Of a DNA stretch of 38,130 nucleotides, positions 2,060 through 31,165 are shown piece by piece. Source of the DNA: Pseudomonadota bacterium (GTDB taxonomy: Bacteria > Myxococcota_A > UBA9042); NCBI GenBank assembly GCA_005777155.1, contig SXNM01000194.1, positions 1 through 38,130 on the forward strand, written 5' to 3'. A program made the translations under genes and the position numbers. Every line of letters starts with the position of its first letter. Position 1 is the first letter of the stretch. Below the pieces are notes generated by a model. The model was given only the letters and a program-made list of their open reading frames with translations. It searched no databases and had not been told where the DNA came from.

Positions 2060-4336
2060 ATGTCGACGTTCCTTGCTCGCCACCCTACTCAGCACAACGT
2101 CCGACCGCTATCGGCCGCTGCGCTCCTCGTCGTCGCTAGCCTGTTGGCCGCGTGTGGCGGCTTGCACAGCAGCGCCGTCCAGTCCGATGGCGCCGCGCTC
2201 GGTCGGGTCGTCATCTACCGCAACGGCGTCGCGTACTACGAGCGCCGGGCCACCGTCGAAGACGGCAAGCTCACCATCGCGGTGCCGAGCGACAAGATCG
2301 ACGACTTCCTGAAGTCCATGACGATCACCGACCTCGCTACCGGCCAGCCGCTACCCGTCGCCTTCCCGGCCCCGGGCCACCGACCGACCCGGCAGCCCGG
2401 CGTGACCGAGCTGGTCGTCACCGTGCCGCCGGTCGACGGCGTGCGCCGCGACAAGCGCGAGGTGTTGCTCACCTACGTCACCGAGGCTGCGGCCTGGAAG
2501 CCCAGCTATCGTGTGGTCCTGCAGCAAGACGAACGCGGCCAGACCCACGGCGTCGAGCTGCAGGGGTGGGCGGTGGTCGATAACACGTCGGCTGAGGACT
2601 GGAACGCCGTCCGCGTCGGGGTCGGCTCCTCGTCGGCCCTCGCTTTCCGCTACGACCTGCGCTCGATTCGCCACGTGCAGCGACAGACGCTGCACGGTGA
2701 GGCGACCTTTGTGCGGGCGCCTCCCCGCGGCGGCGCCGTGGGCACCGAGCGGGGCGAGCCGGCTGAGCGCGAGCTGGCCGCCGTCGACGACAAGGACATC
2801 GCGCGCAACGAGGGGCACCCTGACGTCGCCGAGGCGCCGGCGAGCGTCGATAAAACCAGCAGCAGCGAGGGCGCTGGTGCGCGGGCAGGCGTGGCGCGAG
2901 CTGGCAGGCCCGCGGCGCCGGTCAAGGTGCAGCAGCAGGCTTACCGCAGCTACAGCATCAAGGCGCTCGCCAAGGCAGACGCCAAGAAGAACGACGCAGA
3001 GGAGCCGCGCGACGCTCGCGACGCCCAGGTCGACGCCCTCGCCGACCGGCTGCGGCGCACTGGCGAGGCGGTCCGTGTCGAGGGGTACGCCGCGAGCAAT
3101 GAGCCAGACTTCGGCGACCGCTCCCGCGACCGCGCCCACTTGCTGCGCAACCAGCTGATCGAGCGCGGTGTCCCACCGGCGCAGGTCGCGGCGGTCGGCA
3201 AGGGCGTGCAATCTGGCCGCAGCGCGGGCGTCCGCATCGTGGCCCTGCCGACGCCGCCGGCCGGAGAGTCGGGCCAGGTCTCGCAGGCTGACGCGCCGCC
3301 GGTCGGGGAGAGCCACTTCGAGAGCCGCATGGCCATGACCGTCGCCCGGGGAAGCTCGGCGATGGTCTCGATCTTGAAGTCGAAAACCAAAGGCGACATC
3401 GTCTACCTGTACGCGCCAGAGGGGCGCGGTGGCGACGGGCGATACGCCTTCCGCGCCGTGCGCTTCGTCAACCCGACTAACTACACCCTCGATCCCGGCC
3501 CGATGACCGTCTATGGCGCTGGTCGCTTCATCGGTGAGGGGATGGCAGATCCGATTCCGCCTGGCCGCAGCGCTGTCGTGCCCTACGCCCTCGATCGCCA
3601 GGTCACGGTGGAGCGCGACGCCGACGCGGGCGAGGAGATCGCCCGCCTGCTCAAGCTCAGCCGCGGCGTGCTGACCGCCGAGGTGCAGCACCTGCGTCGA
3701 CACAGCTACCGCATCGCCAACCGCAGCCACGAGAAGGTGACGGTGCTGGTCCGCCACGAGACTTCGCAGGGCTGGACGCTACAGAAAGGCCCGGACACGC
3801 TTGAGCGCTTCGGCACCGCCCGCCTCTACGCCGTCGACGTGGCGCCGGGCAGCGTCCAGACGCTGGCCCTGGTCGAGGCGACGCCGCTGCAGCGCACCAT
3901 CGACCTGCGCAGCCCAGTCGGCCTCGACATGGTGCGCTTGCACCTCGTCAACATTGCCAAGGACGCCGAGCTGCAGGCCGCCATGTCGCGGGTCATGCAG
4001 CACCACGAGGCATCGGCCAAGGCTGAAGAGAAGATCGCCCTGCTGCGTGAGCGCGTCGCCGAGCTGCGCGTCCGGCTCGATGAGTTGCACGGCCAGCTCG
4101 CCAGCTTGGAGGGGATGGCCCGCGGCGCCAGCCTCGAAGCGCACCTGCAAAAGAAGATGCGTGAGACCAGCGAGGCCGTGCAGAAGACGACGATGGCCAT
4201 CGTCGAGGCGCAGCAGGAGCGAATGCTCGCCCGCGTCCGCTTTCAAGACGAGCTCAGCGAGCTGACTCTGGCCAAGGTCGCCGAGCGGGCCGCAGCGCCT
4301 GCCCCGGCCGTAGCGACCGCCGGGCCGCGCAGCTAG
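2060..4336 (+). CDS. DUF4139 family lipoprotein with internal OmpA-like segment and C-terminal coiled coil
   Basis: Start MSTFLARHP after GGAGGAG; lipobox LLAAC; 'VLLTYVTEAAAWKPSYRVVL...DNTSAEDWNAVRVGVGSSSALAFRYDL' is DUF4139-like; 'VRVEGYAASNEPDFGDRSRDRAHLLRNQLIERGVPPAQVAAVGKG' resembles OmpA C-domain. Confidence 0.8.
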   Translation: MSTFLARHPTQHNVRPLSAAALLVVASLLAACGGLHSSAVQSDGAALGRVVIYRNGVAYYERRATVEDGKLTIAVPSDKIDDFLKSMTITDLATGQPLPVAFPAPGHRPTRQPGVTELVVTVPPVDGVRRDKREVLLTYVTEAAAWKPSYRVVLQQDERGQTHGVELQGWAVVDNTSAEDWNAVRVGVGSSSALAFRYDLRSIRHVQRQTLHGEATFVRAPPRGGAVGTERGEPAERELAAVDDKDIARNEGHPDVAEAPASVDKTSSSEGAGARAGVARAGRPAAPVKVQQQAYRSYSIKALAKADAKKNDAEEPRDARDAQVDALADRLRRTGEAVRVEGYAASNEPDFGDRSRDRAHLLRNQLIERGVPPAQVAAVGKGVQSGRSAGVRIVALPTPPAGESGQVSQADAPPVGESHFESRMAMTVARGSSAMVSILKSKTKGDIVYLYAPEGRGGDGRYAFRAVRFVNPTNYTLDPGPMTVYGAGRFIGEGMADPIPPGRSAVVPYALDRQVTVERDADAGEEIARLLKLSRGVLTAEVQHLRRHSYRIANRSHEKVTVLVRHETSQGWTLQKGPDTLERFGTARLYAVDVAPGSVQTLALVEATPLQRTIDLRSPVGLDMVRLHLVNIAKDAELQAAMSRVMQHHEASAKAEEKIALLRERVAELRVRLDELHGQLASLEGMARGASLEAHLQKKMRETSEAVQKTTMAIVEAQQERMLARVRFQDELSELTLAKVAERAAAPAPAVATAGPRS

Positions 4337-10547: not shown

Positions 10548-12743
<2,196 letters not shown>

Positions 12744-12780
12744 CGCGATCACCCCCTAGTTGCACACCGACCCAACGTCC

Positions 12781-14137: not shown

Positions 14138-14771
14138 CCGCGACGTCCTAGCTGGCGACTCGCCTCAAAAGCGTCGGCGCGGTGGCCGCTGTGGCCGATG
14201 AGACCCGCACGGCTGCGCTGAAGCCCGATCCCAGCCACCCCCAGGCTATCCGGCAGAGCCGTCCCAGGCAAGGTCGAAGTCCCCGGGTCAACCGGCGCCG
14301 TCGCCATCTACCCTTGCGAGAGAGACCGCGCTGTCGGCGATCTCCGCTGTCCGCATCGACCGCACCGCCCCGCTGACCTGTCCCCGCGTCGAGGGCCTGT
14401 GGCACGTTGCAGCCTGCCGCGCCGTTCTGCTGGCCGGTGCACGGAGGCCAGGTGAACTCCATTGCGCGCTTCACCACCTATGTCGAGACCTTGGCCGCGA
14501 TTGGGCTGTCCGCCTGCGACGACCCCGGGCCAGCGCCCATCGACGCCGCCGACGGGGGCCCTCCCTCGAGGTCGACGTCAGCGGCGCCGACTGCAAGGTC
14601 GCAGCCGACTGTCCGTCGCCCGCCAATCCATGCGCTGTCGCCACTTGCAGCGTCGACGGCCAGTGCGGCAGCGGCGCGGCCGCCGACGGCAGCCCGTGCA
14701 GCGACAACGACCCCTGCACCGCGGCCGTGGCCTGTCTAGGTGGCGTCTGCGCCGGCCCCTCGACCTGCGCC

Positions 14772-16460
14772 TGCAAGACCGACGGCGATTGCAAGCCTTT
14801 CGAGGACGGAGACGCCTGCAATGGCACGCTCTTCTGCGACGCCAGCGGCGCCAAGCCGGTCTGCGTCGTGCTGCCGAGCTCGCGGATCACTTGCCGTAGC
14901 GCCTCCGACACCGCCTGCAGCGCGAACCAGTGCGAACCGACGACCGGCGCTTGCACCGCCAAAGCACGCTCGGACGGCACCGCTTGCGACGACGGTGACG
15001 TCTGTACGACGAAGGACGCCTGCGCCGCCGGCGTCTGCGCTGGCCAGAGCGCCTGCGCCTGTAAGTCCGACGCCGACTGCCAGGCATTCGACGACGGCGA
15101 CCTCTGCACGGGCACCCTCTACTGTGCCGACCTCGGTAGCCCTGCCGCGGCCTGCAAGGTCAACCCGGCGACCGTCATCACCTGCGACGGCAGCGACGAC
15201 GGCCCCTGCATATCTAACCAGTGCCAAGCCAAGGATGGCACCTGCAAGCTCCTCGCCAAGGCCGACGGCAGCGGCTGCGACCTCGACGGCTCCAGCTGTT
15301 CGCTCGACCTCTGCAAGGCGAGCGTCTGCAAACCGGGCGCCCTCGCTGAGCCCTGCGACTGCAAGAACGACGCCGACTGCTCGGCCTTTATTGATGGAAA
15401 CCTATGCAACGGAGAGCTGTTCTGCAGCAAGGCTTCGGGACACTGTGAGTTGAACCCAGCGACCGTGGTGAGCTGCCCCACGGCTGACGACACCGCATGC
15501 CTGTCGCACCTGTGCAACCCTGCGTCCGGCCTATGCCAGACGACCACAAGCGCCGACGGCGCGGCCTGCGACGACGGCTGGACGTGCAGCGTTGGAGATC
15601 ACTGCGAGAAGGGCGCCTGCGTCGCCGGCAAAGGCGACTGCGTCTGCCAGCAGACCGCAGACTGCGAGGCCTACGCCGGCAGCAACGCCTGCGCCAAGCT
15701 CTATTGCGACAAGCCCGCCGGCGTCTGCAAGGTCAACCCGGCGACGCAGAAGACCTGCGACGAGGCGGCAGATCCTGCCTGCAGCGACATGGTCTGCCAT
15801 CTGCAGACGGGCAAGTGCGTACCGGTGCCCAAGAACGAAGGCGGTCCCTGTGAGGCCGATGGTACTTGGTGCACCAGCCTCGACATCTGCAAGGGCGGAT
15901 CGTGTCAACCCGCCACCAGCAAGTGCCCGTGCAAGGCCGACGTAGACTGTCTGGCCATGGATGACGGCGACGCCTGCAATGGCACGCTGTACTGCGACAA
16001 GCCGACCGGCACCTGCTTGGTCAACCCCGCGACCGTCAAGACCTGTGCTGGCGACGCTGGGCCCAGCAAGACCATGGCCTGCGACCCCAAGTCGGGTGCC
16101 TGCTCGGCCAAGGCCCAGACCGACGGCGCCGACTGCGACAGCGACGGCTTTGTCTGCACCGTCGAGGCCTGTAGCGGCGGCAGCTGCGCGCTCCAACAGC
16201 AGGGATGCCTGTGCTGGGAGGCCGCCGACTGCGCGCCCTTCGAGGATGGCGACGCCTGTAACGGCAAGCTCTACTGCGACAAGACCGCCGGCCCACCGGC
16301 CTGCAAGCTCAACCCGGCGTCGGTCGTCACCTGCGCGCAATCGGGGAGCGCCCCCTGCCAGTCCAAGATGTGCAACCCTGCCACTGGTAGCTGCGACGCC
16401 AGCGCCACGCCCGACGGTACCCCCTGTCCCGACGCCAGCGCTTGCACCAGCGGCGAGGTC
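14772..16460 (+). repeat. Six Cys-rich protein repeat units of ~94-100 aa
   Basis: Units begin CKTDGDCKPFEDGDACNGTLFC, CKSDADCQAFDDGDLCTGTLYC, CKNDADCSAFIDGNLCNGELFC, CQQTADCEAYAGSNACAKLYC, CKADVDCLAMDDGDACNGTLYC, CWEAADCAPFEDGDACNGKLYC. Confidence 0.9.
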
Positions 16461-16789
16461 TGAAAGGGCGGCGCCTGCGCCACCAAAGCCGTGGTCTGCG
16501 ACGACGGCCTCTCTTGCACGGTCGACAGCTGCAACTCCGGCACCGGCTGCGTTTTCTCGAAGGCCAGCGACCTCGACCCCTGCGACGACGGCAACGCCTG
16601 CAGCGAGAACGACGGCTGCCAAAAAGGCCTCTGCATGGGCCAGAGCCCGCTCGTCTGCCAGGATGGCGACCTCTGCACCACGGACGCCTGTGACCCCAAG
16701 ACTGGGTGCACCGCCGCCGTGAGCCAGGTCGGGGCGCCGTGCCCGAGCGGCATCTGCGGGGTCGGCGGCTGCGTCGTCGCCGCCGGCCG

Positions 16790-19019
16790 GACCATCGGCG
16801 CCAGCAGCTCCAGCCAGGCTTTTGCCGTCTTCGCGGGCGCGGTCTTGGGCTGGGGGCGCAACGTCCACGGCATGTTACCGTCGAAGGCGGTCGGCGAAGG
16901 GCCGCATCCGCCCCTCGTCTTGAGCGTTGGGGGCCTCGTTTTGGTCGGCGCCTCGGAGTCGCGCGCCTGCGGTGTCGACGGCCTCGGCGCCCTGACCTGC
17001 TGGGGCCGCAACGGCAAGGGCGTGGCGTTTGCGCCGACAAAGGTGACGACGCCGGTCCCAATCGTTCAGGTCGTCGGTCACGCCGACACGGCGCTCCTGC
17101 TCGGCACCGACGGCGCCGTCTACAGCCTATCGCCGCTCGCGGCGCCGCTCGGGGTCACCAAGCTGGTCACGCCGCAGGGGGTCAAGCCCTTCATCCAGAT
17201 CGCCAGCGGCGATGGCGTCGGCTGCGCGCTGCAGAGCACCGGGACGCCCTACTGCTGGGGCGACAACGACTTCGGCCAGCTTGGCCAGGGCGCCGGCAAG
17301 GCCACGGGTGGCACTCCGGCCTCGCAGCCTCTGCCGGTGTCGCTGACTGGGGTCGTCGATCTCTGCGCTGGCAGCGGTTTCGTCTGCGCCATCGATGACA
17401 AGGGCGCGGTGCGCTGCTGGGGCGCTGGCGAGAGCGGGCCGCTCGGCGACGGCCAGGGCAAGAACGCGCCGGCGCCGGTCCTGGTCAAGGACACCGACAA
17501 GGCCGCTCCCGGCGGCCCGGCCGCCAAAGCCCTGCGCTGCGCGATTGCCCATGCCTGCCTGCAGGCGTCGGACGGCCGCGTCCTGTGCTGGGGCGACAAC
17601 ACGCGCGGTGGGCTCGGGGTCGGTGATACCGCGCCGCGTTCGACGCCGACGCCGTTGCTCAAGGCTGACGCTGCGGTGTTCAAGCTGCCGGGCGGCAAGC
17701 TCATGACGACCGCGGGCGGCGGCTGTGTGCTCGGCGGTGGCAGCGCCCACTGCTGGGGCGACGACGCGGAGGGGGTGCTCGGCCTGTGGCAGGCGGGCAC
17801 CCAAACAGACCCGCTGATCCCGTCGCAAGTTCGCAAGGCAGACGGCAGCAATTTGGCCGGAGTGACCGAGCTCGTGGGAAGCGAGGGGGCCTACTGCGCC
17901 TCGACGCTTAGCAATCCGAACGACGTCGAGTCGCCGAACGCGTGGTGGTGCTGGGGCGACAACGAGGGCGGCATCACCGGACTTCAGGGCAAGTTCGGCA
18001 GGACGCTGCAGGTCGCGACCCCGACACCGCTGCTCGCCGCCTCGTCGATCGTCGTGGTGACCCCGGACGAGGGCTGCCAAGTCCTCGTCGAGGGCGGCTT
18101 CGACAAGCTGTTGTGCTGGGGCCGCAACATCGCCGGCGCGAAGCTCGGGGTCGACGACGGCAAACCGGTGCCGCTACCGGTGCTGCTCAACAACGTCAGC
18201 GATGTGAGCCAGCTCGTGCGATCGGCTAATCACGCCTGTGCCAGCAGTGGCGGCGGGAAGCTGCAGTGCTGGGGCCAGGGCGGCTTCGGCGCGATCGGCA
18301 CCGGTTCGACGCCCAAGTCTGCGACCCCTCAGCAGATCTCCTGGTCTGATGGCATCGGCAACCTGTCCATTGGTCCTTTTCACAGCTGCGCCACCAACCT
18401 GATGTCGGTGGCCAAGTGCTGGGGCAACAACACCAACGGCGCGCTGGGCCTCGGTACGAAGGGGCCCGTCGTGCCGAGCCCCACCTTCGTCACCGGCAGC
18501 CAGACGATGACCCACATCGCCGTCGGTACCCTCCACACCTGCGCGCTCGACGGCGCCGGCAAGGTCTACTGCTTCGGTCTCAACGGCGGCGTGATGAATG
18601 CCCTGGGCCTCGAGAACGACACGGTCTTCGACAAGCCGACTGCGGGTCTCGCCGCCGGCATCGGTGGCGCCGGTCAGCCCAAGGCGAAGGCGCTGTCGGT
18701 CGGCAACGGCGCAAGCTGCATCATCGATGACGGCGACGTCGCGCACTGCTGGGGCAACAACGTCGTCGGACAGCTCGGCTTCGGCACGCCCAATGCCGTC
18801 GGGTTCGACAAGCAGCCTGGCTCCCCGCTCGGCCTGCCCAAGGTCCAGCGCATCGTGCTGGGCTCTTACTCCGGCTGTGCGCTAACGTTCGGCAAAGGCG
18901 GCGCGGGCCCCCCGACCGCCGAGGTCTGGTGTTGGGGCACGCGCACAGGTGGGCAGACCGGGCGCGGCGTGCACATGCGGACCCACGCCATCGTGCGCCT
19001 GTTGCCGGTGGCCGAGACT
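16790..19019 (+). repeat. RCC1-type beta-propeller repeats (about 12-13 C-W/F-G motifs)
   Basis: LTCWGRNG, PYCWGDND, VRCWGAGE, VLCWGDNT, AHCWGDDA, WWCWGDNE, LLCWGRNI, LQCWGQGG, AKCWGNNT, VYCFGLNG, AHCWGNNV, VWCWGTRT. Confidence 0.9.
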
Positions 19020-19351
19020 TAGCCCGCGGCCTCGGCCTGGCGCTGGCCTAGCCCCAGACCTTGGCGCCGGCCACCGCATGACGCCTCCAGCGCCATTGCC
19101 TGCAGAGCTCGGCCGCGCCGGGGCTGTCTTGAGCGGCGCCACCATCACGCGACGTCTGCCAAAGGGCGCCCGACCCCCTCGCCGCCGCAGCGAGCCGTGG
19201 TAGACAGCGGCTGCGTCTTCGCATTGTCGCTGCCGGTCGTCGCTGAGTGGCTACCGCCTTGACCCCCGTGCCACCCCGACTGACACTTTCACCCCGCCGC
19301 CGGCAACCTCCCCGGGGAAGTCAGCTTGCGGCCTATCGTCACGGAGCACCC

Positions 19352-28763: not shown

Positions 28764-31165
28764 CTAGACGCCGAAGTCGACGCCGACGCCAATGCTCTGT
28801 TCCAGGCGCACGTGCAGGCTGCGCCGCGAGCGAACCATGAGGGTCTGCAGCCGCTGCAGCCGCGCCTCCCAGCGCTGGGCGAGCTCCCGGCCTCGCTCCG
28901 TCCGCCAGTACTGCCTTTCGTGGTGGTGGTGAGAGAGCTCCCATGGCAGCTCATCGTCGTGCCAGGCCAGCACCATCGCCGAAATCCAATCGGCCAGCTC
29001 GTCGAGGTCGAGGCCCTCCTGGAGCGCCAGGGTCTCCAGCCGACGCTGGGCGGTAGCGCTGATGACGCCGCAGACGCGCAGCTCACGCCACGTCGCGAGG
29101 CCACTGCAGTCGGCGATCAGCCCCTGTTCGTAGGCGCGCACCAGCCTCGCGGCGTTGGTCTTGGCGCCGAGCTGTTTGCACGGGACCGGCGCCGGCACCC
29201 AGGCCCCCGTCCGATTCGGCGCGCTCAGGCGGTTCCGATGCGAGTCGTCGTCGAAGCGCCCGACCGCGTCGTGTTGACGGCCGTCGATGTCGTCGACTCG
29301 CTCCTGCAGCCGCTGCACGCTCTGGCTCAGCGTCTTGAAGGGCTTGGGCGCGTGCAGCGGCCGCAGTGCGCTGTGTGTCATCGCGTTGCCGGAGCCCGTC
29401 GGCGCGACGTAGGCGTCGAGTTGGCCGAAGTCGCAGGGAGCGTGATCGAGCGCGAGCGCACCATGGACGAGCTGTTGCGGCACAGACACCGTCTCCGGCT
29501 GACCACTATACCGGCTGTGGTAGCGCCGCGCCGCGACGACGAAGAAGGCCGTGCCGGGGTGGGCGACTTGATAGCGCACGGCGAGCATGACGGCCTCGGT
29601 CTGCGGCAAGGTCCGCACCCGCTGCGCCACAGCCATTCGCGCCAGCCAGGGCTGCGACCGCCGCGCCGGGCGGACGGCGACCTCGAAGCGCTCGCCACCC
29701 ATCTTCACGAAGAGGACGTCCGGCACTGGGCCCTTCACCGCCGCGGCGATCGGCAGCGACTGGCCGGCGGAGACGGTGCGCGGCGGCGGTACCTGCCACT
29801 CGAGCTTTGCGTCGCCAGTGTCGATCTCGCTGATCCGCAACTCCGTTTGGCATAGCCCGGACCACAGTCGAGCGACGCAGGGGGCGACCTCTTCAGGTCT
29901 ATGGAGGACTTCGAGGCGGCCATGGCCGGCCCGGGCGACGTCGGCGCCGAGCGCGGCGTTCGGCGCCGCCCCACCATGACCACCGAGACGCGGTGCTTCA
30001 GCTCCTCTGCCGCCTGGACGCTGGCGCGGATGTCGTGGACCTCGCCGTCGGTGATGAGGACGAGGTGGCAGGCTTGGCCGTGGGTCTCGATGTCGGTCCC
30101 GCAGGCGCGGATCGCCGCGGCGACCTCGGTGCCGCCGCAATCGGCCCGCATGACCGCCAACGTGTCGAGCAGGTCTTTGCGCTCGGCGCCGCTCAGCGGC
30201 GCGACAACGCCACGTACAACTTCATGTGCTGTGCCGAAGCGCAAGACGCCGACGGCGTCGTTCGGATCGAGCTTCGCGATCAGCTCGCTGGCGATCGCAC
30301 GGGCGTTGCCGATGCGGTCGCGGCTGTCCATCGAGCCTGAGCAGTCGATCACCAGCAGCAGCCGTAGCGCGTCGGCGGCGTCGTCGGCGTCGGTGGCGGG
30401 GGCCACGAGCTGGCCCAGCAGGATGGTCTCGTCGTGGTCGAGACCGCTGGCCGTAAAGACTACGGGCGGGATGGTCGCGGCCTCGACGACGACCACGACA
30501 TCGCGATCGAGCTCGGCGTCGGGCGGCAGGGTGACCAGAACGTCGCCCCCGAAGGCGTCCGGCGCGATGTGCGCGTGGTGGGTGACGCAGCTCACTCGAG
30601 CGGCGGAGCCGAGGTCGCAGAGCCGGAGCTCGCAGTCGAGGTGATAGCGTGCGAACAGGTTGTGCCGTGGCGCCTCCTCTGGCTGAAAGCCGGCGGCGCC
30701 AGGGTCGCCGTAGCGCTCGCCAATCACCGTCGGCAGGGCGATGTGCACGTGGCCTTCGAAGACCTGGAGCAGGACGCCATAGCGCAACGTGATCTGGCAC
30801 TCGTCGCCCGGCCGAAGCGCGCCGACGCTGCAGGTGATGACCTCACCGAGTCGCACCGAGACCTGCACAGCGGTCTCACCTTCTTTGATGGCCAGCTCAT
30901 AGGCTGAAGCCGCCGATCCCCGCCGGAGCGCCATCGCCCGATGCGTCTCACCGTTCAAAGTGAGTTCGACGTCGAGCAGCGTCGACGCCGGCGGCATGGG
31001 GAAGGTGTAGACAGGCTCGATCAGCACGTTGCCGGTGTGGACGAAGTCGTGCACCACCTCGACGTGCATCAGCAGCCCCTCGACTGCCGCCCGCACCCGC
31101 ACCCCGCGCAGCAGTAGGTCGTGACCGACCCTGTGGCCGAAGCCGCGCACCAAGCTGTCGCTCAT
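28764..31165 (-). CDS. VIT + VWA domain protein, with apparent 1-nt frameshift near 29969-29972
   Basis: 'VEVVHDFVHTGNVLIEPVYTFPMPPASTLLDVELTLNGE' (VIT); 'LLLVIDCSGSMDSRDRIGNARAIASELI' (VWA MIDAS DxSGS); C-terminal part is in another frame (ORF 28764..30140). Confidence 0.85.

Follow-up and report, generated by a model that had tools for sequence, protein, structure and literature searches.

The in-frame TGA codon at positions 16461-16463 of the window, a contig (C169) of 38,130 nt, is very probably an ordinary single-base lesion, either an assembly error or a recent nonsense mutation, and not a recoded codon. The affected gene belongs to a large family of paralogues encoding predicted exported proteins, in which Cys-rich repeats are joined to an RCC1 propeller, and it is broken twice, by a frameshift near its N-terminus and by the TGA. 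As the sequence stands, translation would end with the TGA, leaving the propeller half out of the protein. The basis for this reading comprises the position of the TGA, the conserved Cys that it replaces, the second lesion, family stops that look random and the lack of a SECIS element beyond background after the TGA; as a counterpoint, UGA is decoded as selenocysteine (Sec) elsewhere in the genome, in fdhA.

Architecture of the interrupted gene

Translation confirmed that the open reading frame at 14727-16463, its terminal TGA and the open reading frame at 16491-19022 share one frame, as originally proposed, and the repeat units quoted at that time are present in the sequence. The same kind of Cys-rich repeat is found on either side of the TGA, third-position GC amounts to 0.92 immediately past it, and the frame then remains open and coding-like for ~850 codons. 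Alignment with stop-free family ORFs from the genome and its relatives places Cys at the TGA column in 865 of 1055 stretches, and in 77 of the 85 that reach at least 38% identity; when each ORF is represented by its best alignment, 136 of 153 have Cys there. The residue had been described as invariant; with 136 of 153 ORFs it is conserved, but invariance is slightly too strong a term.

Table 1 Features of the interrupted gene and a further frameshift on the same contig
Feature	Position	Strand	Basis
Likely N-terminus in the other frame, with a short hydrophobic stretch and a lipobox-like LSAC/DD	14407-14560 (start codon approximate only)	+	Frame translation, third-position GC at 14381-14500, arrangement in paralogue C6
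Frameshift (indel), in or near gacgggggccctccc	14553-14575 (approximate)	+	Reading passes out of the 14407 frame into that of 14727
Cys-rich repeat modules before the TGA, ~85 aa each	14576-16460	+	Repeat comparison
In-frame TGA at conserved Cys column	16461-16463	+	Frame translation and alignment to the repeat family
Last Cys-rich repeats after the TGA, frame unchanged	16464-16782	+	Repeat comparison, third-position GC
C-terminal RCC1-like beta-propeller domain, ending with TAG 19020-19022	16783-19022	+	Pfam
Frameshift in unrelated VIT-VWA gene	29900-30010 (approximate, ~29950)	-	Pfam, GC phase

The gene does not begin at GTG 14727, a point missed in the original prediction: the Cys-rich protein extends upstream of this codon, with its beginning in another frame. 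No ATG, GTG or TTG exists in the 14727 frame within the 175 codons back to the stop at 14199, third-position GC changes phase somewhere between 14441 and 14561, and the likely N-terminus lies in the other frame, which together place a frameshift at ~14553-14575 in the TGA-containing gene. In the closest paralogue (C6, 55% identity), the corresponding N-terminus (LGACEQ...) and the repeats are encoded in a single frame. The lipobox-like motif suggests that the protein is exported.

The propeller domain was matched in Pfam by WD40_RLD (PF25390, 300.6 bits) and by RCC1 (PF00415, 123.9 bits in seven stretches), with RCC1 repeats exceeding the curated Pfam score. The Cys-rich N-terminal half matched no model in Pfam or NCBIfam, and none of the NCBIfam models, TIGR02232 included, matched either half. 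TIGR02232, the myxobacterial cysteine-rich acidic repeat, is also a Cys-rich repeat and is carried by the neighboring gene at 10548-12752 (minus strand) along with a fibrinogen-like GGGW domain, whereas the repeat of the TGA-containing gene does not match it.

Internal stops across the repeat family

The Cys-rich repeat family is very large, with 335 matches in the genome, which is an incomplete draft (4.71 Mb, 467 contigs, 58.9% complete), and the repeat was matched in 52 of the 53 genomes of the kin search. Its modules of ~85 aa are sometimes fused to RCC1-like propellers. In paralogues on C429, C110, C30 and C259, an RCC1-like propeller (Pfam WD40_RLD/RCC1) likewise comes after the Cys-rich modules, the first three being seemingly intact, single long open frames of 2188, 1768 and 2498 aa, respectively; compared with these paralogues, the copy in the window is broken twice. 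The closest paralogue, C6, has Cys at the column of TGA 16461-16463 and carries a TGA of its own elsewhere, at a position where the gene in the window has Cys.

Internal stops were surveyed in 117 family segments of the genome (47,869 aa) and in 62,692 aa from relatives. Segments of the genome contain four TGA and five TAG codons. The TGAs, all at Cys or likely Cys positions, are the one at 16461-16463, that of C6 and two in C28; the TAGs are located in C45, C395, C459, C392 and C35. A fifth TGA, in C273, was excluded from the count as a frameshift artefact, and in the paralogue on C259 a TGA adjoining the propeller domain does not fall on Cys. Relatives yielded three TGA, two TAG and one TAA codons, leaving out two further TAGs that look like ordinary gene ends. 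One family member of a relative (L182, G011:C48) harbors three in-frame stops, two TGA and one TAG, and is a decayed or badly assembled copy. TGA is hence not in excess over TAG and TAA in either set (4 versus 5 in the genome, 3 versus 3 in relatives), and recurrence of a stop at one and the same column was not observed. The stop rate in the genome (9 in 47.9k aa) is about twice that in the relatives (6 in 62.7k), a difference that is not clear.

Chance expectations were derived from codon counts of the genome's family segments (12,135 codons, 14.5% Cys). If bases are substituted at random, stops are expected to arise as TGA, TAG and TAA at a ratio of ~0.50:0.42:0.08. The probability that a TGA created in this way strikes a Cys codon is ~0.95, and it stays within 90-96% when the assumed transition bias is varied broadly. 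The coincidence of the TGA with a Cys position is therefore expected of a random lesion.

The open and coding-like frame downstream of the TGA would also be compatible with readthrough by a near-cognate tRNA (e.g. Trp), yielding some full-length protein without Sec. Such a protein would still be broken by the upstream frameshift, no stop is conserved across the family and TAGs are equally frequent in it, and we regard readthrough as very unlikely.

Selenocysteine decoding in the genome and at the TGA

The genes selA, selB, selC and selD, which the original prediction had named as a genomic check on Sec insertion, were all found. The genome encodes a tRNA-Sec with anticodon TCA (72.8 bits), and matches were obtained for selB (270.9 bits), selA (446.2 bits) and selD (359.6 bits); in a kin search covering 21 genomes, selA scored above cut-off in 19, the present genome among them. 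The formate dehydrogenase alpha gene, fdhA (L119, C390:1494-3530), contains one TGA (...QCAAT(U)HAPTVAGL...), past which the sequence forms a 7-bp hairpin with the loop GGUCU, and encodes a genuine selenoprotein with a canonical SECIS. Since the full machinery and a Sec-containing FdhA are present, missing machinery, which had been proposed as a route for arguing against Sec, is inapplicable here.

A SECIS had also been suggested as a feature to look for downstream of the TGA. Hairpins were scored by a rough version of our own of the published bacterial consensus, which an atypical SECIS could escape, and compared with a background of 2500 Cys codons drawn from the family. Neither this rule nor folding identified a SECIS beyond the Cys-codon background after TGA 16461-16463: the best hairpin (-7.2 kcal/mol), beginning ~27 nt past the UGA, has a score equalled by 21.7% of the sampled Cys codons, and folding of the stretch gave a z of -0.76. 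The fdhA control passes, with a value of -12.4 that is equalled by 2.8% of the sampled codons. A GGUCUG ~32 nt past the TGA resembles the fdhA loop and was dismissed as coincidence, as it spells a Val-Cys codon pair common in the family.

The paralogue on C28 (L080) carries its two in-frame TGAs at 2861 and 3617 on the minus strand, 252 codons apart and at likely Cys positions. A strong hairpin follows the TGA at 3617, ranking with the best 0.3% of Cys codons; it was rejected as a SECIS, being one of eight sites tested and not the minimum-energy fold, with a z of -0.57 for the stretch. Within the family this paralogue is the least badly fitting Sec candidate, and is probably explained by chance.

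Decoding of UGA 16461-16463 as Sec, standing in for a disulfide-type Cys of an exported repeat protein, would be in line with the presence of selA, selB, selD, tRNA-Sec and Sec-containing fdhA, with the TGA falling precisely on the Cys column and with the TGAs that three further sites in paralogues from this genome show where Cys is likely. Bacterial selenoproteins, for which FdhA of this genome served as reference, likewise have an in-frame TGA where homologues carry Cys, together with the Sec machinery. In contrast to them, the TGA-containing gene shows no SECIS-like hairpin above the background that the fdhA control exceeds, its site is not the active site of a redox enzyme, and its reading frame is not otherwise intact, owing to the separate frameshift at ~14553-14575. 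Its family, moreover, contains TAGs at an equal rate, with no excess of TGA, and TAG cannot be decoded as Sec. For a new selenoprotein family, a search in environmental DNA required the TGA to be conserved in at least two sequences, as isolated cases can stem from sequencing errors (PMC1088965); no column with two TGAs was seen in the family survey, and the TGA at 16461-16463 is unconserved. Literature searches turned up no earlier case of Sec in a protein of Cys-rich repeats; the original prediction had regarded Sec in an exported disulfide-type repeat as unprecedented. We therefore consider Sec at this codon extremely unlikely, and equally so a lineage-specific selenoprotein that would use Sec for a structural disulfide Cys of an exported Cys-rich repeat protein, with an atypical SECIS and an upstream frameshift that is a separate assembly error.

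A true stop at the TGA, with the ORF from GTG 16491, 28 bases past it, as a separate gene, is scarcely credible, because the break point lies inside one repeat module, the downstream half would be without an export signal and paralogues carry both halves, seemingly as single frames.

Assembly error or recent decay

An ordinary lesion at the TGA corresponds to the default of the original prediction, a sequencing error or nonsense mutation, which is favored by the SECIS analysis, the conservation, the stop ratio and the second lesion. As to its origin, the balance tips slightly towards base errors of the assembly at both breaks, in which case the gene would be intact in the living organism, over a recent pseudogene. 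An old pseudogene is unlikely, since the frame is open and coding-like far past the TGA.

The window contains a second frameshifted gene (VIT-VWA, Table 1), in which Pfam VIT and VWA matches lie in one frame and the continuation in another, with third-position GC switching phase. Two frameshifted genes on one contig, together with the low quality of the draft, point to assembly errors. At the contig end (37990-38130, plus strand), the match of a 2-oxoacid:ferredoxin oxidoreductase (POR) gene breaks off within the final 150 bases, which suggests contig-end errors or a chimeric end. Outside the family, a screen masked against shadow frames of the Cys-rich genes found no convincing lesion in ~10,000 homology-covered codons, where one or two were expected, and thus gives no positive support for a high genome-wide error rate. 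The stops left after masking are those in L091, which look like shadow frames, and one in L158; rpoC, the intended essential-gene control, is absent from the incomplete genome. Stops in family members of relatives also fit genuine gene decay, within a large family that evolves by birth and death.

If true, Sec at this position would be a new use of the amino acid beyond redox enzymes. In Cys-rich proteins, nearly any random TGA hits a Cys codon, so that its coincidence with a conserved Cys says little in favor of Sec in such proteins, even when the genome is known to use Sec. A comparison of TGA counts with those of TAG and TAA within one family provides a fast and telling control.
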